Assembly: GCF_001653715.1 (NCBI RefSeq)
Contig: NZ_LWHQ01000038.1
Location: 124,001 to 188,000, forward strand
Length of the DNA: 64,000 nucleotides
DNA from: Methylobacterium platani
GTDB taxonomy: Bacteria; Pseudomonadota; Alphaproteobacteria; Rhizobiales; Beijerinckiaceae
Direction of reading: 5' to 3'
The notes beneath the pieces were generated by a model. It made no database searches. It was not told where the DNA came from and saw nothing but the letters and a program-made list of their open reading frames with translations. A program made the position numbers and the translations under genes. Below, piece by piece: positions 1,982 through 46,261 of the stretch; position 1 is the stretch's first letter; each line of letters opens with the position of its first letter.

Positions 1982-2046
1982 GGGCTACGACCTGTCCCAA
2001 GCGCTGGCGGGATGTCCGTTGGCGCGTCAAGACGGAGTAGACCGTG

Positions 2047-3684: not shown

Positions 3685-3701
3685 CCCTTCCGGAGACCGC
3701 C

Positions 3702-4359: not shown

Positions 4360-4387
4360 TGCCGCCCCCGCGCGAATAGCGCGCCTA

Positions 4388-4409
4388 CCCCGGCCATCCC
4401 TGGCCGGGG
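4388..4409 (+). terminator. Perfect 9-bp GC hairpin, terminator-like
   Basis: CCCCGGCCA at 4388-4396 pairs perfectly with TGGCCGGGG at 4401-4409 across a 4-base loop. No T-run follows, so it may be a Rho-dependent end, a pause site or an mRNA stabiliser between two small operons. Confidence 0.4.
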
Positions 4410-4440
4410 CTCCCGTCCCCCTTCGTCCGGAGCGCCCGCC

Positions 4441-4815
4441 ATGACCGAGAAGCCATCCCCCGTGCACGTGCACTTCCATCGCCGTCTGAAGATGTGGTCG
4501 ATCCTCCGCAAGCGTCGCCTCATCGGACACGCGCCATCCCTGGTCCTCGCCGGGTGCGTCATGCGCACGAGCGAGGCGGCCAGGGTCCGGTGCCAGCTCG
4601 CCAATCGCCGCGAAGTGCACGCCCTCATCGAGGGCACCCTGACCGACGGCGCCCGGCCCGCCGACGCGGTGCGGATCGGCTACCGGCCGGCCGAGCCGGG
4701 CTTCCGCCGCCGCGACACGGGCGCCGTCGTCACCGCCGCCAGCCGCGTCTGGTTCGAGCCCGACGGCACCGCCTGGGCGGCCAACCCCACCCCCTCTATG
4801 GAGACCATGTCATGA
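4441..4815 (+). CDS. Hypothetical protein (124 aa)
   Basis: The gene starts at an ATG preceded by CCGGAG and opens a second four-gene run. The protein is basic, with an N-terminal HVHFHRRLKMW segment and no signal peptide or recognised domain. Its stop codon overlaps the next start as ATGA (4812-4815), so translation of the two is coupled. I do not recognise a family. Confidence 0.6.
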   Translation: MTEKPSPVHVHFHRRLKMWSILRKRRLIGHAPSLVLAGCVMRTSEAARVRCQLANRREVHALIEGTLTDGARPADAVRIGYRPAEPGFRRRDTGAVVTAASRVWFEPDGTAWAANPTPSMETMS

Positions 4816-5060
4816 TCGACCCCACCCTCACCGCGGTCGCCGACCGCCTCCAGGCCGCATGGGAGAGCGGCGAGATCTGCTCGCTCGTCGGCCGTGGCGC
4901 CCGGGCGCGCGTCCTGCGGGCGGCCCGCCTCGTCGAGGCCGGGCTGCTACCGCTGGACGAGGCCCATCGCGTCGCGGCGCGGGCTTGGTCCCTCGCCGCG
5001 GGCGTCGAGCCGCTCCCGGCGCCGCCCCTCGGCGACGACGCTTCGGAGGCGCTGTCGTGA
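4812..5060 (+). CDS. Small hypothetical protein (82 aa)
   Basis: This 82-residue alpha-helical protein overlaps the previous stop as ATGA and its own stop overlaps the following GTG start, so it sits in the middle of a translationally coupled set. The sequence is rich in Ala, Arg and Glu and resembles a compact helical bundle. No conserved motif is visible and no family is recognised. Confidence 0.6.
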   Translation: MIDPTLTAVADRLQAAWESGEICSLVGRGARARVLRAARLVEAGLLPLDEAHRVAARAWSLAAGVEPLPAPPLGDDASEALS

Positions 5061-5377
5061 TCGGCATCCGCATCCTCGCCGCCGTCCTGGCCGCCGTCGC
5101 CACCGTCCCTGCTCGGGGAGCAGAGGCCCCGTTCCCCTCGTGCGGGGACATCTGGCGCTACGGCCTGCAGGCCCCCGGAGGCCGCGGCGTCACGCGCCAC
5201 GTCGGCCAGGGCACAAGCGGCCGCGGTCGCGGCTCCGGCCTCGGCGGCACTTACCTCGTCGAGGGCGTAAGGCAGAACTTCATCATCACGCTCAAGGGTG
5301 CCGAACTCGACCTGCCCGGGCAGTTCACCGACGCGCGGTGCGCGAGCGGGATCGGCCAGCTTTCGACGGGCGACTAA
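5057..5377 (+). CDS. Small exported protein (106 aa), paralogous signal peptide with next gene
   Basis: The GTG start at 5057 overlaps the previous TGA. Residues 1-22 form a classical Sec signal peptide (basic start, RILAAVLAAVATVP, cleavage near AEA). The mature part is glycine-rich with two cysteines (in PSCGD and ARCAS) that could form a disulfide. It ends GQLSTGD, very close to the DVSSGD end of the following gene. The product is expected in the periplasm or outside the cell. Function is unknown. Confidence 0.6.
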   Translation: MIGIRILAAVLAAVATVPARGAEAPFPSCGDIWRYGLQAPGGRGVTRHVGQGTSGRGRGSGLGGTYLVEGVRQNFIITLKGAELDLPGQFTDARCASGIGQLSTGD

Positions 5378-5401
5378 GGCCCCTTCCGCGGAGACCACGC
5401 C

Positions 5402-5860
5402 ATGATCGCCACCCGCATCCTCGCCGCCGTCCTGGCCGTCCTCGCCACCGTCCCGGCCGAGGCGGCCCGCCAGGCCAAGCCCGCGCCGGAGCCGCCGCCG
5501 TTCCCCCAGCACGACGACCGGTTCGTCATGGCAGTGCGCGGGCCCGTCGTCGGCGGCCGCGCGGGGTTCGCGCGCGTCTACGCCTCGCCCGCCGGCCGGG
5601 ACGGCTGGACGACGACGGTGACCTGCGGGACCGTCGACGTCCGGACTGGGCGCGAGCGGATCGAGCTCCAAGCCCCCGGGAACGCCTACCGGGACCGGAC
5701 CTCGTTCACCGGCACATGGACGCCCCTGGGCGGCGGCGGCCGCTACGGCGAGAACCAGATGCGGACATGGAGCGTGACCCGCCAGGACGGCCTCGACGTG
5801 ACGGTCGCCATGAGCGGGCCGTGCCCCTCCGGCGCCGGCGACGTCTCGTCGGGCGACTGA
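5402..5860 (+). CDS. Small exported protein (152 aa), sister of preceding gene
   Basis: The ATG at 5402 lies 24 bases after the previous stop with GGAG upstream. Its signal peptide (RILAAVLAVLATVPAEA) is almost identical to that of the previous gene, and the C-terminus (SSGD) also matches, but the middle differs. The mature region has a beta-rich, tryptophan-containing pattern with two cysteines (TCGT and GPCPS). The pair looks like a duplicated secretion frame with exchanged cargo. No enzymatic motif is seen. Confidence 0.65.
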   Translation: MIATRILAAVLAVLATVPAEAARQAKPAPEPPPFPQHDDRFVMAVRGPVVGGRAGFARVYASPAGRDGWTTTVTCGTVDVRTGRERIELQAPGNAYRDRTSFTGTWTPLGGGGRYGENQMRTWSVTRQDGLDVTVAMSGPCPSGAGDVSSGD

Positions 5861-5934
5861 GGCCCTCGTGCGCTGGCGCTATGCCCGGGATCCGCGACCA
5901 TGCCGACGAGGGGGAGTTCCTGGTGGATGGATCG

Positions 5935-6146
5935 GACGTGCATGGCAAGATTGGTCTCAGGACGAGCTAGCGAAACGTTCAAACGTCTCGCTTTCAACCA
6001 TGCGCGATTTCGAGAAAGGACGGCGTGTCCTTATCGCCAACAACCTGCGTGCCATGCGAGCCGCGCTTAAGGCGGCCGGGGTCGAACTCACGCACGACCC
6101 CGATAGTTTGCATGGCAAGGCTGAGAAGGCGTCTGCGCCCGCGTGA
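5935..6146 (+). pseudogene. 5'-truncated XRE/HTH regulator remnant
   Basis: The frame carries a good Xre/Cro helix-turn-helix core (WSQDELAKRSNVSLSTMRDF, then EKGRR and a C-terminal helix ending in VELT), but the usual start (a Met-containing helix before RAxxxWSQ) is missing. The frame can be opened from a GTG at 5868, yet the residues before about 5935 are arginine/proline junk. The 11-mer TGCATGGCAAG occurs at 5939-5949 and again at 6109-6119, bracketing the fragment. I read it as a regulator that lost its 5' end by recombination; translation from 5868 is less likely. Confidence 0.5.
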
Positions 6147-6154
6147 TGCAAGCT

Positions 6155-7756
6155 CTAAAGAGGCTTGAAGATACTCTGCGCAGTATCTGAGTGTAAGCGA
6201 GCATAAAATTCTAGCGCATATCTATCTGTCATTCCTGCAATAAAATCGCATATAGCTCTCATCTTTGCTGTGCTATTCGGCCTAGCCTTCAAATATTGCT
6301 GCCTTAGGTCCTCAGGCATCAACAAAAATCCTTTGTCGCTGGACAGGGCATCAAAGATACCCTTAACTACTTCGTAGCCTCTAAATTCAGCAACCTTAAC
6401 CCTCGCAGAATAAATGGTTGCTTCATACGTATAATTTTTTAGAACTTCCACTTTTTTGCGAGCCTCTGGCTTAAGTCTCAATTTTGTTAAACCAATAATA
6501 TCTTCGTTTGCGACTTCTATTTCAATATCTCTAATTGCCTCATTGACTAGCTGACTAGTAAACTCGGTTCTATAATGACTTGAATTGGTTATATTATTGA
6601 ATATTTCATATATTTTGCTGAATTCATTGATCGGCGGTAATCTGTTATTGCGATCAATAGTCGCGTCAGCGCTCTCGAATATAGCATGAAAAGTATCTAT
6701 CACTTCCTTCCGAGTAAAATCTTGCTTCAATGCCTTGGCAATTTTTTTTGCGACCCTGTCTAGTAGATCCTTACTTGACGCCAGAATGTCTCCTGGAGTT
6801 ATGAAGCCAGCCTTGAAACAATCCTCAAGGTCATAGGTTGAATATGCAATATCGTCAGCAATATCCATAATCGAACATTCAATTGTTTTAAATTTATAAG
6901 CCTCATTGTCAGGGTGTCTGTCGCGCCACTTCGGATCCACTGATGTTTTAGCAAGTTCAACGATATTTGACTCAGTTGCGTAGTATCCTTTTACAAGATC
7001 TGCGTCGGCAGATCGTTCGTAATCTATTTTTCTATCGTATTTTATAACTGACGCGATAGTGCGAAGTGTTAAGTTTAGACCAACTCGTTCGTCTTCCACA
7101 TTAGAAAGCGCATCATAATCATCGTTGGACAGCTTCTTTTCGACGCGAGATATAATACGGACAGTTTGAGCATTGCCTTCAAACCCGCCAACCTTCTTCA
7201 TGCAATCATCAAGCGGCCGCTCTCCATTGTGCCCGAACGGCGGGTGGCCTAAATCGTGGAGTAGAGCCGCAACAGAACAGAGACGAGTATCAATTTTAGC
7301 CTTCTCAAAAAGCTTTTCAGTATAATTTAGTTGAAGGGCGATTCCCTCAGCAATTTGCGCAACTTCCAGTGAATGCGTGAGTCTATTTCTAAAAAAATCA
7401 GACTCATGGCCTGGGAAAACTTGAGTTTTTCCTTGTAGCCTTCGAAAGCTTGCGCTGTGAATTACGCGAGCATAATCGCGCATGACCGGAGGACGCCATG
7501 GCGTCTCCGGCTCAAAGGCTTTCCTCTGCCAAGCCGCCGCGCTGTAAAGCGCTGTGACCTCTACCCTCTCCTGGGCTTCTCGCTCACAGGGAGGGATACT
7601 TGCTCTCGGGTCTCGCTCCTCGGCTGCCTCTGGCGATCCGCCTCGCGCTTCTTCGAAACCTCCCTCAGGGTGGTCAGCTTCCGGTCCGCTTCTCTCGCCG
7701 CTTCCACGAAGGCCCTGTAGACCGTCATCGGTGGACTCCTCTTGCTCTCCCGCCAC
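6155..7756 (-). CDS. dgt: dGTP triphosphohydrolase-like HD protein, probable anti-phage dNTPase
   Basis: The HD-domain dNTP triphosphohydrolase is clear. It carries RDYARVIHSASFRRLQGKTQ, RLTHSLEVAQ (metal His 128 counted from 7756), LLHDLGHPPFGH (His167-Asp168) and DIADDIAYS (distal Asp). The family hydrolyses dGTP to deoxyguanosine and triphosphate; in bacteria such enzymes can starve phages of dNTPs. The gene is AT-rich unlike its surroundings (22 G/C in the 60 bases 6421-6480), a sign of transfer. The true start is uncertain: family homology begins near codon 70 (about 7546). The first roughly 64 codons of this frame have poor G/C at third positions, whereas the overlapping 7561-7728 frame has good codon use. 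No ATG/GTG/TTG lies between 7560 and the ATG at 7483. Confidence 0.88.
   Translation of the reverse strand: MAGEQEESTDDGLQGLRGSGERSGPEADHPEGGFEEARGGSPEAAEERDPRASIPPCEREAQERVEVTALYSAAAWQRKAFEPETPWRPPVMRDYARVIHSASFRRLQGKTQVFPGHESDFFRNRLTHSLEVAQIAEGIALQLNYTEKLFEKAKIDTRLCSVAALLHDLGHPPFGHNGERPLDDCMKKVGGFEGNAQTVRIISRVEKKLSNDDYDALSNVEDERVGLNLTLRTIASVIKYDRKIDYERSADADLVKGYYATESNIVELAKTSVDPKWRDRHPDNEAYKFKTIECSIMDIADDIAYSTYDLEDCFKAGFITPGDILASSKDLLDRVAKKIAKALKQDFTRKEVIDTFHAIFESADATIDRNNRLPPINEFSKIYEIFNNITNSSHYRTEFTSQLVNEAIRDIEIEVANEDIIGLTKLRLKPEARKKVEVLKNYTYEATIYSARVKVAEFRGYEVVKGIFDALSSDKGFLLMPEDLRQQYLKARPNSTAKMRAICDFIAGMTDRYALEFYARLHSDTAQSIFKPL
7561..7728 (-). CDS. Small charged protein (55 aa), leader or N-terminal part of the dGTPase
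   Basis: The ATG at 7728 has a strong GAGGAG ribosome binding site 7 bases upstream. The 55 codons have mostly G/C third positions, unlike the overlapping dGTPase frame, so this is the better coding frame in the stretch. The protein is a charged helix (AFVEAAREADRKLTTLREV) with a basic tail. It stops at TAG (7563-7561) right after AGGAGAGGG, and the dGTPase homology begins about 15 bases later in the -1 frame without a usual start codon. It may be a coupled leader gene, or the N-terminus of the dGTPase joined by frameshift. Confidence 0.5.
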   Translation of the reverse strand: MTVYRAFVEAAREADRKLTTLREVSKKREADRQRQPRSETREQVSLPVSEKPRRG

Positions 7757-7883
7757 GCTGACCTCTCAAGCTTGACCGAAACCCACCAAGGTGCCGCTAT
7801 CCCCGGCATCCACGGTGCCGACGATAAATCGCCGCGAGGTTGAGTGCATTCACTGTTTTTTAGCCGTTGGTAGGACTGCCAAG

Positions 7884-7912
7884 CTTATAGAACAAAACAG
7901 GAACATTTACAA
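7884..7912 (-). promoter_or_regulatory. Sigma70-type promoter for the dGTPase transcription unit
   Basis: Read on the minus strand, TTGTAA (7912-7907) and TATAAG (7889-7884) are separated by exactly 17 bases inside an AT-rich stretch. It lies about 130-155 bases upstream of the possible starts at 7756 and 7728. The hexamers are closer to consensus than anything else in this part of the window. Confidence 0.55.
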
Positions 7913-7978
7913 TCGCCGGCGTCAACGATTTTATGTGATGTCGCTGCATAACACCGCGAGGATCACACGGAGCGCTGC

Positions 7979-8191
7979 TTAGCCGGCGGTGGCGGAGGGG
8001 GGCGCCGGCAAGGGCGCGTGGTTCTCGGTTAGGTAGACAACGCGGCCGTATACGAAGCGCCGGCGACCATGCGGGTTGGTTGGCTTGGCGCCGCCGTGCC
8101 GTGCGTCGAGGGCGCGGGCCCGCAGGGCCTTGAGCTCGCCGGCTAGGACGACCTTCGGGGGCGGCTGGTCGATGACGAGGGGCCGGATCAT
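7979..8191 (-). CDS. Small hypothetical protein (70 aa)
   Basis: The ATG at 8191 overlaps the TGA of the upstream primase-like gene (ATGA), with GGAGG about 8 bases upstream, so it is translated with it. The 70-residue protein has a basic middle (KALRARALDARHGG, RRRFVYGRVVYL) and a short proline/alanine tail. It has no recognised domain. Coupling suggests an accessory role with the replication protein. Confidence 0.6.
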   Translation of the reverse strand: MIRPLVIDQPPPKVVLAGELKALRARALDARHGGAKPTNPHGRRRFVYGRVVYLTENHAPLPAPPSATAG

Positions 8192-9960
8192 GCCGACACC
8201 TCCTCGGGAACGGAAACGCCCGCCGGGCCGTGAGGCGCGCAGCGGGCGTTGTCGGGGAGGTAGGTGCCCTTCACCGTGACTTCGCTATTATAGGCCTCCC
8301 CCTTGGGCGCCACAAGCGCGACGGCTGCCTCGCCGGAAGTATTTCCGACCTTCGCGCGTGAAGTACCCCGTGACGAACCGTGTGAACGGCGCGGCTTGAT
8401 CGGCTTGTCCGGGGCGGTAACCGTGCCGATGGTCTCGATGGCCTTGGCGTCGCGCAAGGCGGTGTCGAGGTAGCGGGTGGTGACGCCGAGCCGGGCGGCG
8501 ATGGCGGGGCGGTCGAGCCCCTCCTCGCTGCGAAGGCGCAGGGCCTCGACCCCGATGGCGAGCCGAGCGCCCTGCTGATCCGCGCGGGCCTTGGCCCCCC
8601 GGGACCGGCGCAGGGTGGCTTGGCGGTCCGCGACGACGTCCCGCCTCCGCTCGGCGGTCACCAGGATGCGCAGGTCGGCGGCGCCCATCTCGGACGGCTG
8701 CACCTTGAGGAGCTCAATCAGCCGCTTCGGGCCCGGCCGGTAGCGCGGGTCGACCTCCTTCTTCAGCCACGCCTTCCGTTCGCCATTGGCAGCGTCCCGG
8801 GCCGCCTTGCGGACACCGCTCGTGCAGGACAGGGCCTCCTCCTCGTCGAGCCCCCAGGCGTGCGCCTGGTCCCGGACCCACCCGTCGAGGTCGCACGCCG
8901 GCAGAAGCCAGGCCTGGACCATCGTCGCCGCGAACGCCATGGTCGAGCGACCAGTGTCCTCGACCATCCGCTTCCCGCCGAACCGGTGGGCGCGAAGGCG
9001 CTCGATGTCGGCGGCGATGGCCCGCCAGTACGAGCGGCCGGTCAGGTGGCCGCCCACCCGCTCGCGCTTCTTGCGTGCCGGCGCGGCAGGGGCGGTGGTC
9101 GGGGCCACCTCCTCCTCCCGCCGCGCCCGGTCACGCCCGGCCTGCTTGGCGGCCCGCTTGGCGATGCCGTCGAGCTTCTCGGCGACGAACAGCTTCGCCT
9201 TGCGCCGCGAGACCGGCATGACCGCGGCGGCGAGCTCATCGAACGTCCCCCGGCGGACGTCGGCGGTGTAGTACGGCCACATCATGAAGGCCGGGGCGAG
9301 GGCATTGGGGTTGTAGCTGCCCGAGTACCGGTAGAGGTGCGTCGGCGACATCCCGGTGGCGTCGTGACCGAGGTCCTCGAACGCGCGGTTCAGGGTGCGC
9401 TGGACGGCGCGCCACCGGGGCAGGACCTCGCGGGGCGCCACCTCGTAGAGCCACACAATGAGCATGCCCCTTCCGGACGCCATGACGTAGCTCGGAGCCG
9501 GCCAGCGCTTCTCCTCGCAACGGCGAAGGACGATGTCGAGCACGTCGCTCTTGGACAGCCCCGCGAGGCCCTGGACGCCGTAGTAGTCGAGGTCGATCCA
9601 GTTGGCGCAGATCGAGGTGACGTTGGCATCCGACGCCTCTGGGACGGGCTCGCCCGGCTTCGGGTAGGGGAACGTGCAGAAGGTGTGGAAGCTGAGCTCC
9701 TTGAGGGCGCTCACGACAGAGGCGTGCCCGAGGCGGATGCGCTTCACGGAGAAACGACGCTCGCGGAAGACGTAGTGCTTCTTGTGACCCTTGCCGATGT
9801 TCACCCGGGCAGCGATGCGGATGAGGCCGTGGCTACCGACCGGATGGATGAAGCGGAGGTAGTCGAGGGCGGTGAAGTCGCGGGTTTCGGATGGCATGGC
9901 GCGGGCGGGCCATGCCTCCGGGTGCACAGCATGGCCCCGGATCTCGTTAAGGGTGGTCAC
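8188..9960 (-). CDS. Primase-polymerase-like replication protein (AEP-type)
   Basis: The protein (about 590 aa from the GTG at 9960, which has CGGAG 6 bases upstream; the frame is open to 10080) carries the pattern of archaeo-eukaryotic primase (AEP)-type replicases: WIDLDYYG (121-128) as the metal-binding DxD motif, ASGRGMLIVWL (161-171) as the second motif, and LYRYSGSYNPNA (209-220) at the position of the usual R-PGT-N motif. A long basic linker follows (around 250-310), then a helical domain and a C-terminal helix-turn-helix-like stretch (DRPAIAARLGVTTRYLDTAL). Such proteins start replication of plasmids and phage-plasmids. Assignment rests on motif spacing only. It is coupled to the 70-aa gene downstream. 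Confidence 0.65.
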   Translation of the reverse strand: MTTLNEIRGHAVHPEAWPARAMPSETRDFTALDYLRFIHPVGSHGLIRIAARVNIGKGHKKHYVFRERRFSVKRIRLGHASVVSALKELSFHTFCTFPYPKPGEPVPEASDANVTSICANWIDLDYYGVQGLAGLSKSDVLDIVLRRCEEKRWPAPSYVMASGRGMLIVWLYEVAPREVLPRWRAVQRTLNRAFEDLGHDATGMSPTHLYRYSGSYNPNALAPAFMMWPYYTADVRRGTFDELAAAVMPVSRRKAKLFVAEKLDGIAKRAAKQAGRDRARREEEVAPTTAPAAPARKKRERVGGHLTGRSYWRAIAADIERLRAHRFGGKRMVEDTGRSTMAFAATMVQAWLLPACDLDGWVRDQAHAWGLDEEEALSCTSGVRKAARDAANGERKAWLKKEVDPRYRPGPKRLIELLKVQPSEMGAADLRILVTAERRRDVVADRQATLRRSRGAKARADQQGARLAIGVEALRLRSEEGLDRPAIAARLGVTTRYLDTALRDAKAIETIGTVTAPDKPIKPRRSHGSSRGTSRAKVGNTSGEAAVALVAPKGEAYNSEVTVKGTYLPDNARCAPHGPAGVSVPEEVSA

Positions 9961-11429: not shown

Positions 11430-14400
11430 GTGTACGTCCTCAACAAACGCGCCCTCGCGCAATACCTGCGCCGCGACTGCAAGCGGCGCCTCCGGCTCGA
11501 CCTTTACGCCTCGGAGGCCGCGCGAGATGCCGCCGGCGGGCCGCCCCGGGACGTAAGCCGGCCCGGCCTCGCACTCATCGTGGAACAAGGACGTGAGTTC
11601 GAGCGGCAGAAGTTCGGTGAGATGGCCGACATCTTCGGCTCCTCCGTCAGGCACGGCGAACCCAAGCGCCATGAGGCCGGTGAGGAGCAGGCGTTCGGCA
11701 CCCTGGCGCTTGAGGACCACATCGACACCGTCACGCCCCACACCTTCCTGATCGAGGCACAGTACGAGGTTCGCCGTCCATTCATCGACGCCCACGGCCT
11801 CGTCGCCTTGCATGCCGGGAGGGAGGCCGGCGTGGCGGGCGCCCTCGGCTTCTCCGACGTCAGGCCGGACATCCTGCACGTGCTTCCACCGACGGAAGGC
11901 CCCCGGGAAGCCGTCACGCCGTCCGGCCTCGTGGTGGAGGTTGAGGGCGGTGATCCCAAGCTCGGCCTCAGGGTCATCGACATCAAGCTGAGCGGAGAGC
12001 CGTCGCCCTCGCACTTCGCGGAACTCGCCTATTACGGCATGACGCTGGCCGCCTGGCTTGAGGCCACCGGCCGCTCCGACCGCTTCGTCGTGCTGAAGAA
12101 CGCTGCCGTGTGGCCGGGCAAGCACGAGGCGTCGACACTGCGCCGATTCGAGCAGTCGCAGCTCGAACGTGGGATCGAGCGGCCCGCGCTGCCAGGGCTT
12201 CTGGCGGCGTGGGAAGACGATCTTGAGACGATGCCGGCCGAGGTCGTCCTTGGGCGCGTGCGCCGATTCTTCGAGGTCGACCTCAGGCAAGCGCTGGCGG
12301 CCGGCGATTGGCGCACCCTGCCCTGGTTCGTCGACAACAAGTGCAGCGGCTGCGACTACCTAGGCTACGATTGGAGGAAGGACACCGACCCGGACGAACC
12401 GGAGACGGAGAGGGAGAGGCGGCGGCGGCACATCGACGAGAAGAAGCGGGAACGCTCCTGCTGGCCCGTCGCAGGCCGCGAGCGGCACCTCAGCATGATC
12501 ACGGGCTTGACCCGCGGGGCCTGCGGCAAGCTGCGGGAGACCTCGGTCACCAACATCATCGACCTCGCCGCGCTACCCGCGGGAAGCCCGGCCTTCGAGG
12601 GGCACCAGAAGCTCCGGGCCGGACGCAGCTTGTTCCAAGCGCGCTCGAACGTGCTGTCCTCATCGGCGGACGCCGTCATACCGAAGAAGGCCGGGACGTC
12701 GGCGGTGCTGCCGCGGAGCGTCGACGTGCGGGTGGCGCTCTCCGTCGACTACGACGTCGGCAGCGGCCTGACGTTCGCCATCGGATACCGGCTCGTCGTC
12801 GAGATGCCGCACGAGCGCGTGCCGGTGGCGGGCGGCAAGCCGTGGTTCAAGAGGCGGACCTTGCGCCGTGAGCCGCGGGTCATGCTGGTCGAGCAGAAGT
12901 CTGTCGCCGCCGAGCGCGAGGTGGTGATGGAGGCGTTGCGCTTCATGGTCGTCGACATCGAGGCCGCGGCGCGCGAAGTCCGCGAGGCCTACGTCGCGCT
13001 GGGCGAGCCGAAGCGGTTCCCCACCTTCCAGGTCTACCTCTGGGACCGGCTGAATTACGAGCACCTACGCACGGTGATGGGCCGTCACTTCCTCGCGGTG
13101 GTGGCGCCGCAGCGGGCCGAGCGGCGCACGTCGACGGCGCCGATGGCGTGGCTGTTCCCACCGGAGACCGTCATCGAGGAGCCCAGCTTCACGAGCAAGA
13201 ACTCGCCGGTCACCATCGTATCCGACGCGGTGACCGCGCTCGTCGCGGCCGACGTTCCCCACCACTACTCGCTGCTGGGCATCGCGAACGCCTACCACCC
13301 GGCCTGGATGGACAAGGACCGGGAGCCAGGCCGCAAGCCCTTCCTCGTGAGCCGGTTCTTCGTCGATCCGCTCTCTGACCAGATCCCGTCCGAGCGGGGC
13401 CACGAGATATGGAACAGGCGCTCGCCTTTCGAGAGCACCGACTTCCAGGGCTACAGGGACATCCTGCGCAAGTACGTCGCCCGGCGCCTCGACGCCGTGC
13501 TGGCGGTCGCGGAGCGGCTCGCCCACGACCTGAAGGACGAGCTCTCGTCCCGCGCCCCGAGGGTCGACCGCGTCTTCGGCCAGACGGAACCCGAGGGGTC
13601 GATGGCGGTGGACAGCGAGATCCTCTACCAGCACGCGCGCCTCATGCACGCGGCACAGTTGCTGGAGAACGAGTTGCTGATGGCGATGCCTCCGCACCAG
13701 CGCGAGGCGACGTTCGCCAGCGCGCGGATGGACGCGTTCCTAACGGGCGCCGCCCGGACCGAGGCACTCATGCTGGTGGATCGTGACGACCTGGACGAGC
13801 GCGACGACGTCCTCTTGCTGCACCTCTCCGAGCGCTCCCTTCAGACCAAGATCAAGGAGGGCGACTTCACCTGGACCCTGATGCCCGAGACGGCACTGAA
13901 GGACCAGAACAGAACGGTCGCCTCGATGAAGGAGGAGCACCCCGCGCTCAGGGCGGCCACCGCGCTCGGCCCCGTCGAGAACAGGGACAAGGGGATCACC
14001 GTCCGAAAGGCTTGCGCGGTGAAAGTCCTGGTCTTCGACCGCGTGCGCCGCATCGTCGTCGCGCAAGCCGACAGGCGGTTCCTTCCCGTGGCCGCGCGCC
14101 TGGGCATCCTGGATTTCAACCTCGACGTCGCGCATCAGGCTATCCTGGACCCGCGCGTGATCGACTTCTTCGTGACGAAGCGCCTCCTGCCGGCCTTGCA
14201 GCAGATCAAGGTGCCGCCGCTCTCGCGGTCGCGGCCCTTGTTCCGCAATCCGTCCCTCACCCGCCTGCGGCTGCCGAACCCGCATCGGTCCGCCCCGGTC
14301 CCGGCGGAGCGGTTCATATGGGACGCGGACGGGCTCGCCGGCGAGACGGCACGGTTCCAAGGGGATCTCGTGCTCGCGGCCGCGCGAGACCCCAACTCGG

Positions 14401-15854
14401 ACCGGGTGCCGACCGCGGCCCAGGCCACCGCCATCAGGCAATCCGCCGAGCGGCGCCTGTCCCTGCTCTGGGGGCCACCCGGTACCGGCAAGAGCACGAC
14501 CGCCGTCGCGCTGCTGCGCGGCCTCCTTTCCGAGGCCGCGCGCCAGGGCACCCCCATACGGATCGCCGTAACCGGCCCGACTTGGGTGGCCATCGACACC
14601 GTCACCCGGAAGGTGCCGCAGCTCCTGTGCGACCTCGGCATGCAGGCCGCCGTGGCGGTCGCCCGTTTGTCCAGCATGCAGGATTCCGACGGTGCCCCGG
14701 AACTGGCGCCGCATCATGTGCGCACGGACGGTGAGGACGACCACAAAGCCCTCGTCGAGCGGCTCGCCAGCCGCGCCGGCAGCACCGTCGTGGCCGGAAC
14801 GGCACATCAGCTCGCGAAGCTGAGCCTGGACGAAGCAGGCCCCATGAAGCCGTTCTTCGACTTCATGCTGGTCGACGAGGCGTCGCAGATGAGCGTGGCG
14901 CTCGCCGTCACGGCGTTCAGCACGCTCGCCGAGGGCGCTCAGGTGACGGTCGTCGGCGACAACCTGCAGATGCCGCCGATCCAGCCGGTGCCGCCGCCGG
15001 AAGGCGCGGAGCACCTCGTCGGCTCGATCTACGACTTCTATCGGGAGTACCGGAAGGGCGAGCCGGCCGCCGTCGGCATCGAGCCGGTCATGCTGGACCG
15101 GAGCTACCGCTCGAACAAGGAGATCGTCGAATTCGTTCGGCAAGCGGGCTATCGCAGCGAGCTGGAGGCCGCGTTCCCGGACCTGCGGATGCGCGTCGCC
15201 GGGGGCGGGCTCGCCACGCTCGGTGCCGGCGAGGCGGACGCCGCCGCATGGAACGCTTGCCTGACGGAGATCCTCGACCCGGAGAAGCCCCTCGTCGCGG
15301 TGATCCACGACGACGAGCATTCGAGCCAGCGCAACGACGGCGAAGCCGCCTTGGTCTCCGGCATCGTCCGCGCCCTGCGAGGCCGGCTCCTGCCCGAAAA
15401 GGGCGAAGAACCGCTATCCCCGGTCGCGTTCTACGGGGACGGCATCGGCATCGTCACCCCGCACCGGGCGCAGCAGGCCGCGGTGGTCGAGCGCCTCCTG
15501 CGGATCGGGAGCGGCCAGGCGGAGCACGAGGCCATGATGGCGGCCGTCGACACCGTGGAGCGCTTCCAGGGCCAGGAGAAGACGGTGATGGTCGCGAGCT
15601 ACGGGCTGGGCGACCGGGACCAGATCGCGTCCGAGGAGGAGTTCCTCTACAGCCTGAACCGGTTCAACGTGGTGGCATCGCGGGCTAAGGCGAAGCTCGT
15701 GGTGATCCTCTCGCGGTCGCTCATCGACTACCTGCCCCGCGACCCGGACACGCTCCGCCGCTCCCGTCTCCTCAAGCATTACGCCGATGGTCACTTGCAG
15801 GGGCGCATGAAACTCTCGATCCCTGTCCTGGGCGATTGCGAGTTGAGGAGCTGA
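11430..15854 (+). CDS. PD-(D/E)XK nuclease-superfamily 1 helicase fusion (1474 aa)
   Basis: The N-terminal third looks like a RecB/Cas4-type nuclease: a VIDIK catalytic-type strand near 182-187 and a cysteine motif CSGCDYLGYD near 304. The C-terminal third is a superfamily 1 DNA/RNA helicase of the AAA_11/AAA_12 (Dna2/UPF1-like) kind. It shows GPPGTGKS (1015-1022), LVDEAS (about 1147-1152), VVGDNLQMPPI, YRSN, a GIVTPHRAQQ motif, DTVERFQGQEK and SLNRFNVVASRAK. The long middle is of unknown function. The GTG at 11430 is chosen because family members start with a similar NKRALAQYL helix; TTG at 11364 is an alternative. The stop overlaps the methylase start (TGATG). Expected role is unwinding and cutting DNA. 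Confidence 0.85.
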   Translation: MYVLNKRALAQYLRRDCKRRLRLDLYASEAARDAAGGPPRDVSRPGLALIVEQGREFERQKFGEMADIFGSSVRHGEPKRHEAGEEQAFGTLALEDHIDTVTPHTFLIEAQYEVRRPFIDAHGLVALHAGREAGVAGALGFSDVRPDILHVLPPTEGPREAVTPSGLVVEVEGGDPKLGLRVIDIKLSGEPSPSHFAELAYYGMTLAAWLEATGRSDRFVVLKNAAVWPGKHEASTLRRFEQSQLERGIERPALPGLLAAWEDDLETMPAEVVLGRVRRFFEVDLRQALAAGDWRTLPWFVDNKCSGCDYLGYDWRKDTDPDEPETERERRRRHIDEKKRERSCWPVAGRERHLSMITGLTRGACGKLRETSVTNIIDLAALPAGSPAFEGHQKLRAGRSLFQARSNVLSSSADAVIPKKAGTSAVLPRSVDVRVALSVDYDVGSGLTFAIGYRLVVEMPHERVPVAGGKPWFKRRTLRREPRVMLVEQKSVAAEREVVMEALRFMVVDIEAAAREVREAYVALGEPKRFPTFQVYLWDRLNYEHLRTVMGRHFLAVVAPQRAERRTSTAPMAWLFPPETVIEEPSFTSKNSPVTIVSDAVTALVAADVPHHYSLLGIANAYHPAWMDKDREPGRKPFLVSRFFVDPLSDQIPSERGHEIWNRRSPFESTDFQGYRDILRKYVARRLDAVLAVAERLAHDLKDELSSRAPRVDRVFGQTEPEGSMAVDSEILYQHARLMHAAQLLENELLMAMPPHQREATFASARMDAFLTGAARTEALMLVDRDDLDERDDVLLLHLSERSLQTKIKEGDFTWTLMPETALKDQNRTVASMKEEHPALRAATALGPVENRDKGITVRKACAVKVLVFDRVRRIVVAQADRRFLPVAARLGILDFNLDVAHQAILDPRVIDFFVTKRLLPALQQIKVPPLSRSRPLFRNPSLTRLRLPNPHRSAPVPAERFIWDADGLAGETARFQGDLVLAAARDPNSDRVPTAAQATAIRQSAERRLSLLWGPPGTGKSTTAVALLRGLLSEAARQGTPIRIAVTGPTWVAIDTVTRKVPQLLCDLGMQAAVAVARLSSMQDSDGAPELAPHHVRTDGEDDHKALVERLASRAGSTVVAGTAHQLAKLSLDEAGPMKPFFDFMLVDEASQMSVALAVTAFSTLAEGAQVTVVGDNLQMPPIQPVPPPEGAEHLVGSIYDFYREYRKGEPAAVGIEPVMLDRSYRSNKEIVEFVRQAGYRSELEAAFPDLRMRVAGGGLATLGAGEADAAAWNACLTEILDPEKPLVAVIHDDEHSSQRNDGEAALVSGIVRALRGRLLPEKGEEPLSPVAFYGDGIGIVTPHRAQQAAVVERLLRIGSGQAEHEAMMAAVDTVERFQGQEKTVMVASYGLGDRDQIASEEEFLYSLNRFNVVASRAKAKLVVILSRSLIDYLPRDPDTLRRSRLLKHYADGHLQGRMKLSIPVLGDCELRS

Positions 15855-17989
15855 TGGCGGGAGGGGGACTACCAGGGCGCTCGCTGCTCGACGCCGGGGA
15901 CCTGCCCGTCGCGGACATCGCGGTGCTGGCGCGCCGCGAGGGCGTGCGGCCGCGCGACACCTACCAGGCCCACAAGTGGTTCGCGCGCCGCCTCGCCGCG
16001 ACCGCGCGCTCGCTCCTGGTCGCGGCCACCACGCCTGCCGGCGGCTCGTTCTGGGCCGGGTATTACCGCGACACCGACTGCACCGGCCTGCGGGTGCTCG
16101 ACCCGTTCATGGGCGGCGGCGTAATGCTGCTGGAGGCGTCGCGGCTCGGCGCGGACGTGCACGGCACCGACGTGGAGCCCGTGGCGGCTGCGGTCTCCGA
16201 CTTCCAGGGACGCCTGGCAGACGTCCCCGACCTGGGTCCCGCGCTCGACCGCCTGTTCGACGTCGTGGGGCGTGAGGTCGAGCCCTACTACGCCGCGGAC
16301 CACGACGGCGCCCCCGGCCGACTGCTCCACGCCTTCTGGGTCCAGGTCGTGGACTGCCCCGCCTGCGGGCACGTCTTCGAAGCCCATCCCTCCTACCGGC
16401 TGGCCTGGGACGAGGCGGCGGGAACCCAGCACGGCATCTGCCGCTCCTGCGGGACGGTCGAGGCGGTCGACATCAAGCGCAAGACGCTGCGTTGCGGGTG
16501 CGGGACCCGAACGGACCTGCGGAAGGGCGCCGTCGCGCACGGCAAGGCGTGCTGCCCCTCCTGCGGCCATCGGCAACGCCTGATCGACGTGGCCCCCAGG
16601 ACCGGCCGCCCGCCGGAGTTCCGCCTTTTCGCCGTCGAGACTTTGCCCGGCTGTCCGGAACGGTCCTACCCCGTGCGCGAGCGACGCCTTCGCCGGGCCG
16701 AGGACGGCGACCGCGCCACGTACGAGCTGGCGCGGTCGCGCTTGGCCGCCGAGGCAACGGCCGACCCCGGCTTCCTGGTGGCGGGCGAGATCCCCCGTAC
16801 GGGACGGTTCGACGACCGCCTCCTGCGTTACGGCTACTCGGCCTACCGGGAACTCTTCAACGCGCGCCAGTCCCTCCATCTCGGCCTGTTGGCACGGGCG
16901 CTGGACGGCTTGGACGGCATCGAGGGGGAGGCGCTACGCATCGCCTTCTCGGACCACGTCGTCACCAACAACCTCATGTGCGGCTACGCGGGCGGTTGGC
17001 GGCGCTTGTCGCCCCTGTTCGCGATCCGGGCCTATAGGCACATCAACCGACCGGTCGAGCTCAACCCATGGCTGTCGCGGAACGGGCGCGGCACCTTCCC
17101 CAACGCGGTCCGCTCGGTGGTGCGCGCGGCCCGGTCGCTGAAGGCCGGCACCGAGCCGCAGCGCGAAGGCTCGGTCGTGCCCGTCCCCGAGCGCCCCCGG
17201 GGCGGTTGGGACATCCGCTGCGGGGACGCACGCGACCTCGCGCACATCCCGACGGGTACCGTGGACCTCGTCCTGACCGACCCGCCCTATTTCGACTACA
17301 TCGCCTATTCCGAGCTCGGCCACTTCTTCGTGCCCTGGATGGCGCGCCTCGGCCTCCTCGACCCGGCGCATCTCGACGGTTTCCCGGCGGGCCAACTGGC
17401 CACCTCGCTCGGGCACGACGACGCGGAGCGCATCTTCGCAGATGCCCTGACCGAGCGCCTGAACGAGGTCGCGCGCGTGTGCCGCCCGGAGGCCCGCGTC
17501 GTGTTCACCTACCAGAGCCTCGACGGCCGGGGCTGGCACGCCCTCGCCAAGGCTCTCGGCGCGGCCGGCATGCGACCGGTCAAGGCTTGGCCCATGTTCG
17601 GCGACGGCGGCGCGGGACCGCACAAGCACGAAAACTCCATTTCCTGGGACTGCGTCGTCCACTGCGAGGTCCACAGGCGGCGCGGGGTCCCCGATTATGG
17701 CGAGCGGTCCTCGGCGGCGGGGCAGGCGTTCGCCGAGACCTGGAAGGCCTGCCTGGAGGCGTCGGGCTTCCGCCTGACGAACGGCGACATCACGAATATT
17801 GCGCATGCCGGCGCCCTCGTGGCAGCCCTGGCCGACCCACCCCTGCAGGTGGACGGCTCCGACATCGCGGTTGAGGCCGCATCGCCTTTGCCGGGCGACG
17901 GAGGGGTCCCGGCCGACGCCGGACCGCAGTCGGCACAGATCGCGCGGCGGAGGATGTCGCGCCCGAGCGTCGTACGGGCCGAGCGGTAG
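15854..17989 (+). CDS. DUF1156-type adenine-specific DNA methylase with zinc ribbons (711 aa)
   Basis: The N-terminus YQAHKWFARRLAATARSL matches the DUF1156 signature of COG1743-type DNA methylases. The S-adenosylmethionine motif VLDPFMGGG lies at 81-89 and the catalytic DPPYFDY at 476-482, which predicts N6-adenine methylation. Between them are several CxxC pairs (CPACGH near 168, ICRSCG, CGCG, CPSCGH) forming zinc ribbons that could recognise DNA. The order (SAM motif, long insert, DPPY) is like alpha-class amino-methylases. The ATG overlaps the helicase stop, so the two are coupled. In a defence setting it would mark self DNA. Confidence 0.85.
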   Translation: MAGGGLPGRSLLDAGDLPVADIAVLARREGVRPRDTYQAHKWFARRLAATARSLLVAATTPAGGSFWAGYYRDTDCTGLRVLDPFMGGGVMLLEASRLGADVHGTDVEPVAAAVSDFQGRLADVPDLGPALDRLFDVVGREVEPYYAADHDGAPGRLLHAFWVQVVDCPACGHVFEAHPSYRLAWDEAAGTQHGICRSCGTVEAVDIKRKTLRCGCGTRTDLRKGAVAHGKACCPSCGHRQRLIDVAPRTGRPPEFRLFAVETLPGCPERSYPVRERRLRRAEDGDRATYELARSRLAAEATADPGFLVAGEIPRTGRFDDRLLRYGYSAYRELFNARQSLHLGLLARALDGLDGIEGEALRIAFSDHVVTNNLMCGYAGGWRRLSPLFAIRAYRHINRPVELNPWLSRNGRGTFPNAVRSVVRAARSLKAGTEPQREGSVVPVPERPRGGWDIRCGDARDLAHIPTGTVDLVLTDPPYFDYIAYSELGHFFVPWMARLGLLDPAHLDGFPAGQLATSLGHDDAERIFADALTERLNEVARVCRPEARVVFTYQSLDGRGWHALAKALGAAGMRPVKAWPMFGDGGAGPHKHENSISWDCVVHCEVHRRRGVPDYGERSSAAGQAFAETWKACLEASGFRLTNGDITNIAHAGALVAALADPPLQVDGSDIAVEAASPLPGDGGVPADAGPQSAQIARRRMSRPSVVRAER

Positions 17990-18042
17990 CGTCGCGACGG
18001 CCCCGGAACCCATCCTTGCAACCGAACACCGAAGGCATTGCG

Positions 18043-18726
18043 ATGAGCGAGATGAGCTACGACCAACGACCGTTCGGGAACGCCGAATTCGCCGAGAACC
18101 CCGAGAACCGCTGCCCGGTCGTCCTGCTGCTCGACAACTCGGCCTCGATGAGGGGCCGGCCCATGAACGAGCTGAATACGGGCCTGCAGGTCTTCCGGGA
18201 CGAGCTCTTCGCCGACACGTTGGCGGCCAAGCGCGTGGACGTGGCCGTGGTGACCTTCGGGCCGGTCAAGGTCGAGATCGATTTCGTCGGGGCCCAGCAC
18301 TTCCACGCCCCGACGCTCTCGACCGCCGCCGATACCCCCATGGGCGCGGCCGTCGAGCAGGCGTTGTCGCTGCTGCGCGCCCGCAAGGACGCCTACAAGA
18401 GCAACGGCATCGGCTATTATCGCCCCTGGGTGTTCCTGATCACCGATGGCGGCCCCACGGACTCGATCTCGCGCGCGGCCCAGCTCGTCCGCGAGGGCGA
18501 GGAGGCCAAGGCGTTCATGTTCTTCGCGGTCGGTGTTGAAGGCGCCAACTTCGACACCCTGCGCCAACTCAGCGTGCGCGAGCCGCTCAAGCTCGACGGG
18601 CTGCGCTTCCGCGACCTATTCAAGTGGCTGTCCGCGTCGCTCTCGACCGTCTCGAAGTCGCGCATCGACGAGGCGCCCGCGCTCGCCAACCCGACGGGCC
18701 CGAGCGGCTGGGCGGTGGCCGGATGA
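18043..18726 (+). CDS. vWA-domain protein, TerY-like (227 aa)
   Basis: A single von Willebrand A domain covers nearly the whole protein. The metal-ion-dependent adhesion site is complete: DNSAS (Asp31, Ser33, Ser35), DTPMG (Thr98) and ITDGG (Asp135). No signal peptide or membrane segment is present, so it acts in the cytoplasm as a metal-dependent protein-binding module. GAAGG precedes the ATG at 18043. Its stop overlaps the phosphatase start (ATGA). The vWA-PP2C-kinase order is that of the TerY-phosphorylation triad described in comparative analyses of Ter-type stress systems. Confidence 0.85.
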   Translation: MSEMSYDQRPFGNAEFAENPENRCPVVLLLDNSASMRGRPMNELNTGLQVFRDELFADTLAAKRVDVAVVTFGPVKVEIDFVGAQHFHAPTLSTAADTPMGAAVEQALSLLRARKDAYKSNGIGYYRPWVFLITDGGPTDSISRAAQLVREGEEAKAFMFFAVGVEGANFDTLRQLSVREPLKLDGLRFRDLFKWLSASLSTVSKSRIDEAPALANPTGPSGWAVAG

Positions 18727-19541
18727 GCTCTCGCCGGCCGGAATGGAGTTGGGTCGGGGCCCGCGCCACCGGGACCTCGCACGCTCGGGAGGAGAAGGAG
18801 TGCGACGACGCCGGCGCCTGCCGGGAGGTCTGGACGCCCTCCGGGCCGGCGCTCGTGGCCGTGGCGTCGGACGGGGCCGGCAGCGCGCCCCTGTCCCGCT
18901 TCGGGTCCGCTATCGTGGCTCGCTCGTTCTGCAGGTCCGCGTCGGCGTACCTGCGCGCCGGCTCCCGGGTCGACGACATCGACGAGGCCGTCGCACGCGA
19001 CTGGCTCGACGAGATGAGGGACCGCATCGCCCGCCGGGCCCAGCTGGGGGGCCAGCCTGCACGCGCCTTTGCCTCGACGATGGTCGGCGTCGTCGTCGGG
19101 CTGGAAGCCGCCGTGGTCGTCCATGTCGGCGACGGCGCCTGCGCCCTACGGCTCGCCGGCGAGACGGTCTGGCGGGTGCCGAGCTGGCCGGCGCAGGGGG
19201 AGTACGCCGCCACCACCTACTTCGTCACCGATGACCCCGAGCCGCGTCTCTCGGTTGTGCCCGTGCGGGGATGCGTGGAGGAGGTGGCGGTGTTCACGGA
19301 TGGCATGGAGCGCCTGGCCCTCGACTTCGCGGCCGGCGCGGCCTTCGACCGCTTCTTCGAGAGCGTCTTCCCGGCCCTGCGCCGGGAGCCTCCGGGACGC
19401 CGGCGCCGCCTTTCGCGCGACCTGCACGACTTCCTCGACAGCGCGCCGGTCACGGACAGGACGGACGACGACAAGACCCTGCTGATGGCGCGCCGCGTTC
19501 CCGTCCCGGAGCGCGGCATTTTCAATCCCGTGACGGCATGA
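18723..19541 (+). CDS. PP2C-family serine/threonine phosphatase (272 aa)
   Basis: PP2C metal-binding features are visible: CDDAG near 27-31, ASDGAG (Asp50-Gly51), VHVGDGAC (Asp137), VAVFTDGMERL, and a C-terminal TDDDKT in place of the usual DNxT. The domain fills the chain and there is no membrane segment. Both ends overlap neighbours as ATGA, tying its dose to the vWA protein and the kinase. It is expected to reverse phosphorylation by the kinase encoded next, perhaps on the vWA protein or on the nuclease-helicase. Confidence 0.85.
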   Translation: MSSRRPEWSWVGARATGTSHAREEKECDDAGACREVWTPSGPALVAVASDGAGSAPLSRFGSAIVARSFCRSASAYLRAGSRVDDIDEAVARDWLDEMRDRIARRAQLGGQPARAFASTMVGVVVGLEAAVVVHVGDGACALRLAGETVWRVPSWPAQGEYAATTYFVTDDPEPRLSVVPVRGCVEEVAVFTDGMERLALDFAAGAAFDRFFESVFPALRREPPGRRRRLSRDLHDFLDSAPVTDRTDDDKTLLMARRVPVPERGIFNPVTA

Positions 19542-21484
19542 GCGCGACCCAGTACCGAACGACGGCCGGCGCGACAGTGAGGCTCGGCGCACGCCTCGGC
19601 GAGGGCGGCGAGGGCGTCGTCCACGTCGTCGATGGCTCGGGAGACCTCGCGGCCAAGATCTACCTGCCGGGGCTGGCCGCCGAGCGGGAGGGCAAGGTGC
19701 TCGCGATGGCCGGGGCCCGCCTGCACGCGAACAAGTTCGTCGCCTACCCGGTCGACGCGCTGTTCGACCTCCGCTCCGGCGCGTTCGCCGGCTTCACCAT
19801 GAGGAAGGCGGCAAACCGGCGACCGGTCCACGAGCTGTATTCGCCAAGCAGCCGGAAGACGGCCTTCCCGTCCGCGACCTACCCGCTCCTCGTGCGCGCC
19901 ATGTCGAACGTGGCCCGTGCCATGGCGAGCGTGCACGCCTCTGGGTGCGTGATCGGCGACGTCAACCACTCCGGGGTGATGGTCGCCCCGGACGCGACCG
20001 TCACGCTGATCGACAGCGATTCCTTCCAGTACGTCGTCGGCGGCAGGAACTTCCCTTGCAAGGTCGGCACGCCCGACTTCACGCCGCCCGAGCTCCAGAG
20101 CAAGCCCTTCGCCGGCGTGGTGCGCACCCCCAACCACGACGCCTTCGGCTTGGCGACACTGGTCTTCATGACCCTGTTCATGGGCCGCTTCCCGTTCGTC
20201 GGACGCTTCAAGGGCGCCGGCGAGATGCCGCCCATCGACCGCTTGATCGCAGAGTTTCGGTTCGCCTACTCGAACCGCAGCGCGACGACCCTTATGGAGC
20301 CGCCGCCGAACATGCCGACTTTGGCGGACCTTCCGTTGCCGCTTGCCGACGCGTTCGAGCGTGCTTTCGGGCCACTCGGTGCGAATTCCGGCAGGCCCGG
20401 CGCCCCCGAATGGGTCGGCCTTCTCGAACGGGCGGAAGCTGACCTTGTCCGATGCAACCGGAAGGACAACCACCATCACTTCCGGCAGGCACCGAATTGT
20501 CCGTGGTGCCGGATGGAGCAGGTCTTCCCCGGTTTCGTCGCCTTCGTACCGACTTCACCGGTTTTCCAGGGTGGCGCGGCGGTCGACCTCGCGCAACTCA
20601 TCGCGTCTGTCCGTGGTGTGCCTGACCCAGGGCCGGCACCGGACCTTGCCGCGCTGATGCCTGCATCGCCTGCCCCGAAGCCGAGCACGGCGGTCAAGGA
20701 AGCTCGCAGCGCCCGGACCGGACGCAGGGGCGCGGCATTGGTACTGGGCCCGGTGGGGCTGGTCCTGATGGGGTTAGGGGGTGGAGGAGTCGCGCTAGGC
20801 TTGATCGCCATGGTGGCCGCGCTCATCACCTTCTTCGCCACGCCTGAAGTCATCGAGGCCGCCGGTAGACAAGCGCGCGCAGCGAAGACGGAATGGGAAA
20901 CGGCAAGGAAGACCTTCGAGCAAGCTGCGGGGAACGCGACGTTCCTGAAGACGAGGCAGGATGCCGAGACGCTCATCCAGCAGATGCAGAACCTTCCTGC
21001 CGAAGAGGCGCGGCGGCTGGCGGCTCTTGAGGCCGGTCGACGGGAAGCGCAGATGCGCAGGCACCTGGAGCGCTTCAAGGTCGCCCAGGCCAAGGTCTCC
21101 GGGATCGGAGGGGCCCGGAAGCTGACGCTGCGCTCGTACGGCATCGAGACGGCAGCCGACATCGAGTACAACCGGATCACGGCCATCAAAAACTTCGGTC
21201 CATCCACTGCGAGCAGCCTGGTCAAGTGGAGGCGAGCCGCCGAGGCGAAGTTCAATTTCGACCCGCACCAGGGCGTCGACCCGCAAGACGTCGCGTCGGT
21301 CAAGGCGGACATAGCGAAGGCACGGTCCGATGTCATCGGCAGGCTGAGCCACACGGTCGGAACGCTGCAGAGGTTGTCGGCTGAGGCGAAGGCATTCCGA
21401 ACAAACCTCGACCCCCGGTACGCCGTTGCGTGGTCGGCCTATCGACAAGCGGAGATCGACCTCAAGGCGCTCGACCTTGACTGA
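19538..21484 (+). CDS. Membrane-anchored Ser/Thr kinase-like protein with helix-hairpin-helix domains (648 aa)
   Basis: The N-terminal kinase domain has a glycine loop GEGGEGVV (21-28) and a lysine at 40. The catalytic-loop equivalent is GDVNHSGVMV (Asp141) and the metal loop is LIDSDSFQ (158-164), followed by PPEL. These DSFQ-type loops differ from standard HRD/DFG but are typical of the kinases in TerY-phosphorylation triads. A His/Cys-rich knuckle (HFRQAPNCPWC) follows, then a hydrophobic transmembrane segment (about 399-432) and a coiled region. Two helix-hairpin-helix-like motifs (SGIGGARKLTLRSYGI near 520, IKNFGPSTASSL near 549) suggest DNA binding. It is the last gene of the operon. 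Confidence 0.85.
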   Translation: MSATQYRTTAGATVRLGARLGEGGEGVVHVVDGSGDLAAKIYLPGLAAEREGKVLAMAGARLHANKFVAYPVDALFDLRSGAFAGFTMRKAANRRPVHELYSPSSRKTAFPSATYPLLVRAMSNVARAMASVHASGCVIGDVNHSGVMVAPDATVTLIDSDSFQYVVGGRNFPCKVGTPDFTPPELQSKPFAGVVRTPNHDAFGLATLVFMTLFMGRFPFVGRFKGAGEMPPIDRLIAEFRFAYSNRSATTLMEPPPNMPTLADLPLPLADAFERAFGPLGANSGRPGAPEWVGLLERAEADLVRCNRKDNHHHFRQAPNCPWCRMEQVFPGFVAFVPTSPVFQGGAAVDLAQLIASVRGVPDPGPAPDLAALMPASPAPKPSTAVKEARSARTGRRGAALVLGPVGLVLMGLGGGGVALGLIAMVAALITFFATPEVIEAAGRQARAAKTEWETARKTFEQAAGNATFLKTRQDAETLIQQMQNLPAEEARRLAALEAGRREAQMRRHLERFKVAQAKVSGIGGARKLTLRSYGIETAADIEYNRITAIKNFGPSTASSLVKWRRAAEAKFNFDPHQGVDPQDVASVKADIAKARSDVIGRLSHTVGTLQRLSAEAKAFRTNLDPRYAVAWSAYRQAEIDLKALDLD

Positions 21485-43107: not shown

Positions 43108-43140
43108 GGGATGGGTCCTGTCCAGAGGTCGGTCTTGCGG

Positions 43141-46152
<3,012 letters not shown>

Positions 46153-46261
46153 CGATGACCAATGGGCCGGGGGGCGCCGGCCGCGGGAGGCCCGGCGAAG
46201 AAGGCGCCCGGCGGCAAGGTGCGCCTAGCGGGATGAACCGAGCCTGGACAACGCGGCTGTT

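Follow-up and report, generated by a model that had tools for sequence, protein, structure and literature searches.

The window analysed here, 64,000 nucleotides of contig NZ_LWHQ01000038.1 from Methylobacterium platani, carries five genes on its forward strand, named g1 to g5, that encode a nuclease-helicase, a DNA methylase and a vWA-PP2C-kinase triad. The first two, g1 (11430-15854, GTG start, 1474 residues) and g2 (15854-17989, 711 residues), were read from the sequence. They are followed by g3 (18043-18726), a vWA protein homologous to YegL, g4 (18723-19541), a PP2C phosphatase homologous to PphC/YegK, and g5 (19538-21484), a kinase homologous to YegI; the calls of g3 and g4 are based on Pfam VWA and PP2C_2 and on homology, that of g5 on homology. 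The overlap of g1 and g2 reads TGATG (15852-15856), those of g3 with g4 and of g4 with g5 read ATGA (18723-18726 and 19538-19541), and 53 bases (17990-18042) separate g2 from g3. Direct reading confirmed this same-strand layout, with its overlaps and gap, exactly as an earlier sequence-only reading had described it. The GTG start of g1 is consistent with the starts of its homologues in an alignment, and the third-codon-position GC content lies between 0.84 and 0.93 across all five genes. A crude GC-based gene finder called g1 to g4 and missed g5, whose call is supported by homology.

The 53-base gap is the junction between g1-g2 and g3-g5. When the window is compared with two congeners whose triads stand alone, the DNA becomes similar from 18032 onwards, 11 bases short of the g3 ATG, so that the seam falls inside the gap. 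A consensus scan of 17800-18200 recognised no promoter- or terminator-like site; read-through from g2 into g3 is therefore still possible, and with it co-transcription of g1-g2 with g3-g5 across the gap.

The helicase half of g1 matches Pfam AAA_12 (E 2.6e-20) and AAA_11 (E 1.2e-15), both of superfamily 1 (SF1). These two families were matched in all eight members of the g1 family, and SNF2 in none of the eight among the 18 families listed; other helicase matches were ResIII in one member (E 0.088) and DEAD in five (best E 0.0023). Walker A (1015-1022) and the DEAS motif (1149-1152) are invariant in all eight. The nuclease part has no Pfam match, and its assignment is based on invariant motifs, on matches to TIGR03491 in three of the eight family members (g1 of the window is not among the matches listed) and on a weak fold match. 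C17, D147, K186, E198, Y202, C305, C308 and C344 are invariant in the eight aligned rows and are also kept in 12 of 12 rows of an alignment of the N-terminus, while position 184 is D or E in the aligned homologues. We take this residue pattern to be that of the Fe-S nucleases of the RecB family (Dna2, AddB, Cas4), and the four invariant cysteines of the nuclease domain probably form an Fe-S site. A structure model of residues 1-449 reached a predicted local distance difference test (pLDDT) score of 81.5. In a fold search against the PDB this model found Dna2 first (E 0.017) and AddB fifth (E 1.3), none reaching 0.001, and a PDB sequence search with the N-terminus gave nothing at E 0.1.

The N-terminus of g1 thus looks like a RecB/Dna2/TM0106-like nuclease domain and its C-terminus like an SF1 helicase. 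The D, D/E-x-K and E..Y motifs, the four cysteines and the SF1 helicase are what g1 has in common with TM0106-family RecB-like nucleases, Dna2 and AddB; a point of difference is that TIGR03491 is matched by only three of the eight members. To our knowledge, pairing with a methylase is not typical of these nucleases. Membership of g1 in the Dpd, Mokosh, ProA or PLuB systems was considered and dropped: the PADLOC and NCBIfam models of the DpdJ, MkoA, ProA and PLuB helicases share with g1 the SF1 helicase segment, their best stretches fall within residues about 990-1450, and the nuclease half is covered by none of them.

For the methylase g2, Pfam gives nothing above threshold, its methylase matches being weak (UPF0020, 1.6e-4; N6_N4_Mtase, 0.0012). 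The NCBIfam match of g2 to DUF1156_antiphage (4e-16) is far under the cut-off of that model, and weak profile matches point to HmaB, DUF1156 and N6_N4. Pfam DUF1156 was matched in three of eight g2 family members, at best with E 0.018 and under the cut-off. Motif I (DPFxGGG), motif IV (TDPPY) and eight cysteines between them are invariant in all eight; the cysteines look like two zinc-ribbon-like groups, as judged from the alignment. The order of motif I, target region and motif IV is that of the alpha-class adenine methylases. A structure model of g2 was of low confidence (pLDDT 63.9) and was set aside.

The catalytic residues of the triad are intact. g3 matches Pfam VWA (7e-9), g4 matches PP2C_2 (8e-41), and g5 matches Pkinase under the cut-off (6e-5). 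In alignments of 11 rows, which include two near-identical congeners, the metal-ion-dependent adhesion site (MIDAS) residues D31, S33, S35, T98 and D135 of g3, residues D29, D50, D137, D193, D249 and D250 of g4, and residues K40, D141, D159, D161, C306, H312, C321 and C324 of g5 are invariant throughout. The C/H/C/C site of g5 is probably a zinc site. A hydropathy peak (mean 2.28) makes residues 416-434 of g5 probably a membrane segment, and the C-terminus contains helix-hairpin-helix-like motifs; Pfam found no oligonucleotide/oligosaccharide-binding (OB) fold in g5. The domains named in the sequence-only reading were thus largely borne out (helicase, vWA, PP2C and kinase, with intact catalytic residues), while its assignment of g2 to a DUF1156 type proved weak.

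To follow g2 beyond this genome, we scanned a collection of 84,980 species and a viral collection with a pattern-based search, which reaches close relatives only. Six genome loci and one viral-collection contig gave seven full-length close relatives with 43-59% identity; the hosts are alphaproteobacteria, including Mesorhizobium, and Chloroflexi metagenome-assembled genomes (MAGs), besides the viral-collection contig, which further searches recovered again. A full-length g1 (35-47% identity) adjoins g2 in all seven, and the two frames overlap by 1-28 bases in each, with start codons picked by alignment. The gene order is reversed in the two Chloroflexi loci.

The coupling extends to more distant homologues of g1 (27-33% identity). 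Three of 54 plasmid records and loci L041-L045 contained further full-length copies, amounting to seven distinct loci since the L045 alignment equals that of L041, and a methylase lies directly beside g1 in six of the seven; in the seventh, the frame-split copy of Methylorubrum extorquens AM1, none similar to any of these was detected. Five of these methylases (L004, L005, L041, L042 and L043) belong to one short type of 369-385 residues, 40-68% alike, which matches PF01555 above the cut-off. In this type motif I precedes SPPY wherever a pattern search located the two (in L042 the motif I pattern was not found), and the gene is convergent with the g1 homologue in four loci and downstream of it in L043. 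The methylase of L044 (359 residues) lies upstream of the g1 homologue, and its SPPY precedes a motif I-like stretch. Both shorter types resemble g2 only across short motif stretches. SPPY is often the mark of N4-cytosine methylases, so the modified base may differ between the methylase types linked to g1.

A nuclease genetically coupled to a methylase, as expected of restriction-modification in the broad sense, was found in seven of seven close and six of seven further loci. That the methylase is exchanged but rarely missing suggests that methylation is the antidote to the g1 nuclease, and swapping the methylase type while keeping some methylase would fit restriction-modification logic. Comparison of the loci therefore speaks for the restriction-modification-like character that the sequence-only reading had given to g1-g2. 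No description of the pair was recognised, by title or abstract start, among the papers listed by searches of an open-access library, and no model in Pfam, NCBIfam or PADLOC spans the pair as a whole.

Could the pair instead serve DNA repair or replication, with a Dna2-like g1 and a methylase that sets replication-state marks? The weak fold match and the motifs common to Dna2 and AddB would agree with such a role. However, the distribution is sporadic: g2 was found in two of 99 relatives, namely the M. platani genome itself and a congener with a fragment, and g1 in one of 385 genomes of the class, again M. platani (at E 1e-30). Moreover, copies are present on plasmids and viral-collection contigs, and the type of methylase is interchangeable. 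We consider a role in repair or replication quite unlikely.

Distant relatives of g2 (26-30% identity) were rejected as members of the same system. They were examined in 11 loci (L006-L008, from three of 88 plasmid records, L035-L038 and L046-L049; L039 was dropped for its short match), none of which has g1, and they therefore belong to other systems. Two of these loci, 1543-6936 of a small Tabrizicola plasmid (L007) and 4069-9487 of a viral-collection contig (L038), show a similar gene order around the distant g2-type methylase: a protein of about 280 residues, the methylase, a DUF262/GmrSD_N protein and a further gene. On the Tabrizicola plasmid, DUF262 and an annotated HEPN-like nuclease accompany the methylase; on the viral-collection contig, it is GmrSD_N.

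We then asked whether pair and triad occur together. None of g3-g5 was found in the retrieved loci of the seven close pair relatives, two of which are short (L015, 7.1 kb; L013, 12.4 kb). A search of the six pair genomes and the viral-collection record with the kinase g5 gave no match, although the same query matches elsewhere. Besides the window, 23 kinase loci were collected, ten from 78 matching plasmid records and 13 from genome searches. The whole triad is present in 21 of them and the kinase alone in two (L025 and L031), while the g1/g2 pair is present in none; L031 gave a generic helicase-segment match to g1 (24%). Two congeners (G045 and G058), near-identical to each other, have the triad alone at 69-85% protein identity, without the pair; their genomes gave no g2 match at E 1e-10, and g1 was not searched genome-wide there.

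The sequence-only reading had joined all five genes into one restriction system, with the g5 kinase and the g4 phosphatase acting as a reversible switch on the nuclease-helicase, the methylase or both. The common strand, the short gap and the want of a recognisable terminator or promoter between g2 and g3 would suit this proposal. Against it stand the seven pair loci without triad, the 23 kinase loci without pair and the congeners with the triad alone: homologues of the five genes were never found together as a set in any fetched locus. The proposal is thus very unlikely. Its author had called a phospho-switch on a restriction-like machine unusual. A literature search found no methylation-associated defence system with a kinase; kinase/phosphatase modules linked to defence have precedents in reports on TerY-P triads (PMC7699616, PMC11090510) and KKP (PMC11341870).

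Judged by these gene comparisons, the five-gene set is not a conserved system, and the five genes probably represent two separable modules, g1+g2 and g3-g5, lying head to tail in this genome. A phospho-switch acting on the pair, which no comparison supports, could at most be an arrangement peculiar to this strain. The tempting five-gene system is thereby removed for want of support, and two testable units are left.

Several points weigh against this two-module reading. A role of the pair in restriction, methylation or phage defence is a prediction from gene content, and the top fold match of g1 (Dna2, E 0.017) is weak. The coupling of g1 and g2 is not absolute. On the megaplasmid of Methylorubrum extorquens AM1 (L003, 14001-18396), the two parts of a g1 homologue with 43-46% identity lie in different reading frames, and no similar methylase was found in the 14 kb on either flank of it, within a locus of 32 kb; this copy has probably decayed. 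In addition, a congener (L021, 7922-8206) retains a g2 remnant of about 95 residues (64% identity) without g1. As to sampling, three of the six pair genomes are MAGs of completeness not given, and the genome-wide search there was made with the kinase, not with g3 or g4. The g2 scan finds close relatives only, the ten plasmid kinase loci were hand-picked for diversity, and some kinase loci are cut by contig ends (L020 leaves less than 0.7 kb of sequence ahead of its vWA gene).

In the two-module reading, g1+g2 would be a compact restriction-modification-like pair, in which the zinc-ribbon methylase g2 would mark self DNA and the nuclease-helicase g1 would translocate on unmarked DNA and cut it. 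The triad g3-g5 would form a phospho-signalling module. Its kinase g5, probably membrane-attached, may bind DNA through the helix-hairpin-helix tail; the phosphatase g4 would reset the kinase, and the vWA protein g3 may serve as a scaffold or sense metal. We infer, in short, that the methylase protects, the nuclease restricts and the triad signals.

The closest printed description found for the pair is that of the DUF499-centred type-1 BREX-related (BR) system, as given in the available part of PMC12839542; BREX stands for bacteriophage exclusion. Both seem to combine an N6-adenine methylase with a helicase-nuclease; the similarity of g2 to DUF1156/HmaB is distant and, for DUF1156, under the cut-off. 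PADLOC HMA is presumably this type-1 BR system. However, the type-1 BR system has a DUF499 ATPase, which the pair locus lacks, and its helicase belongs to superfamily 2 (Swi2/Snf2) and carries a C-terminal nuclease, in contrast to the SF1 helicase and N-terminal nuclease of g1. A DUF499 partner encoded elsewhere was dropped as an explanation, since none was found in the M. platani genome (7.02 Mb, 149 contigs) or in loci L011 and L016. Among the seven genomes searched (M. platani and six others), DUF499 was found in two, in frames of 1141 and 832 residues outside loci L011 and L016. If the pair restricts, it would show that BREX-related logic can do without the central ATPase and that members of a single nuclease-helicase family can take on different methylases.

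The second module, g3-g5, is by homology the counterpart of the E. coli YegL-PphC-YegI triad. In E. coli record CP088875, tblastn with g3-g5 recovered yegL, pphC and yegI, with 58% identity for g3/YegL (residues 7-193), 31% for g4/PphC and 34% for g5/YegI. The three homologous genes have the same vWA-PP2C-kinase order and overlap, but neither methylase nor helicase is annotated adjoining them in E. coli. YegI is reported to be membrane-bound, as g5 would be by its hydropathy, and to autophosphorylate, PphC dephosphorylating it; the available part of that account (PMC13232886) names neither an expression condition nor a target. The window thus places the YegI kinase triad in another setting.

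The composition of vWA, PP2C and Ser/Thr kinase is also that of the TerY-P triads, which the available sections of PMC7699616 and PMC11090510 describe as anti-phage or as type IV restriction add-ons. The Cys/His site that follows the g5 kinase is reminiscent of the zinc ribbon reported there for CoCoNuT-linked TerY-P triads. An OB fold is reported for the stand-alone anti-phage modules, in place of which g5 seems to have a hydrophobic stretch followed by motifs of helix-hairpin-helix type. The triad could then be a stand-alone anti-phage system of TerY-P type that lies beside the pair because both gather in defence-rich islands. The gene order, the intact active sites, the reported activity of TerY-P against T7-like phages (PMC7699616, in its available part) and the presence nearby of a dGTP triphosphohydrolase (dGTPase) close to an anti-phage model, an IS110-type transposase and an integrase-type arm-domain protein are in line with it. 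On the other side, the PADLOC TerY model leaves g3 unmatched up to E 5 and matches E. coli YegL only at E 0.0097, and the YegL-PphC-YegI account, as far as available (PMC13232886), mentions no phage role. We regard this reading as possible but doubtful.

Other triads have varied surroundings. In Sinorhizobium meliloti (L009, 4326-10815) the triad follows hxsB-hxsC-hxsA, genes of radical SAM peptide maturation, with a gap of 29 bases to hxsA; in Rhizobium sp. CCGE531 (L033) hxsABC is found at the opposite end of the triad and runs on the other strand. The Sphingobium triad has an ATP-binding protein gene 155 bases upstream. The other seven annotated triads have no annotated same-strand gene less than 200 bases upstream in the PLSDB gene table, which is incomplete.

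The flanks of the pair loci have no third gene common to all. In four of the seven relatives (L011, L013, L014 and L022), the pair is flanked by a dGTPase and a protein of about 263-265 residues, both of which lie on its strand and just upstream of g1 in the case of L014 and L022. The small protein, 378 residues long in L011 with an earlier start, carries GGMVRD/DIDLVV motifs, which by eye we take to be nucleotidyltransferase-like. It has no NCBIfam match, and a PDB sequence search with the form of about 263 residues gave nothing convincing. The two genes possibly form a unit, found at 3196-5432 in L014, 3210-5431 in L022, 13806-16414 in L011 and 8251-10487 in L013. A more distantly related two-gene unit (small protein 36% alike) is carried by a Phaeobacter plasmid (L056, 6460-8690), the pair not being annotated in the 16.6 kb shown, and in L004 a dGTPase adjoins the methylase. 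The core pair seems to keep company with a variety of separable neighbours, the triad being one of them. A bolder proposal, which we judge unlikely, is that the pair represents an undescribed restriction-modification-like class. In it, a Dna2-like, probably Fe-S, nuclease-SF1 helicase would work with whichever methylase is coupled to it, of at least three types (TDPPY with zinc ribbons, SPPY, and permuted SPPY) and perhaps with different modified bases. This class would recruit exchangeable accessory modules, the dGTPase with the GGMVRD/DIDLVV protein in four relatives and here the YegLKI phospho-triad, which may gate the pair.

The window has a dGTPase of its own, an HD-domain protein on the reverse strand (6155-7756) that scores 394.7 bits against a cut-off of 400 for the anti-phage dGTPase model. 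It is classed differently from the dGTPases of the pair relatives and sits in a stretch of 47.6% GC (6001-8000) within a region otherwise around 70% GC. Downstream of the five genes lie an IS110-type transposase (29405-30385) and, at 31788-33395, a protein bearing the arm DNA-binding domain of integrases, which suggests a mobile island. Further along, about 42073-46492 is 90% identical to a stretch on a plasmid of Methylobacterium aquaticum.

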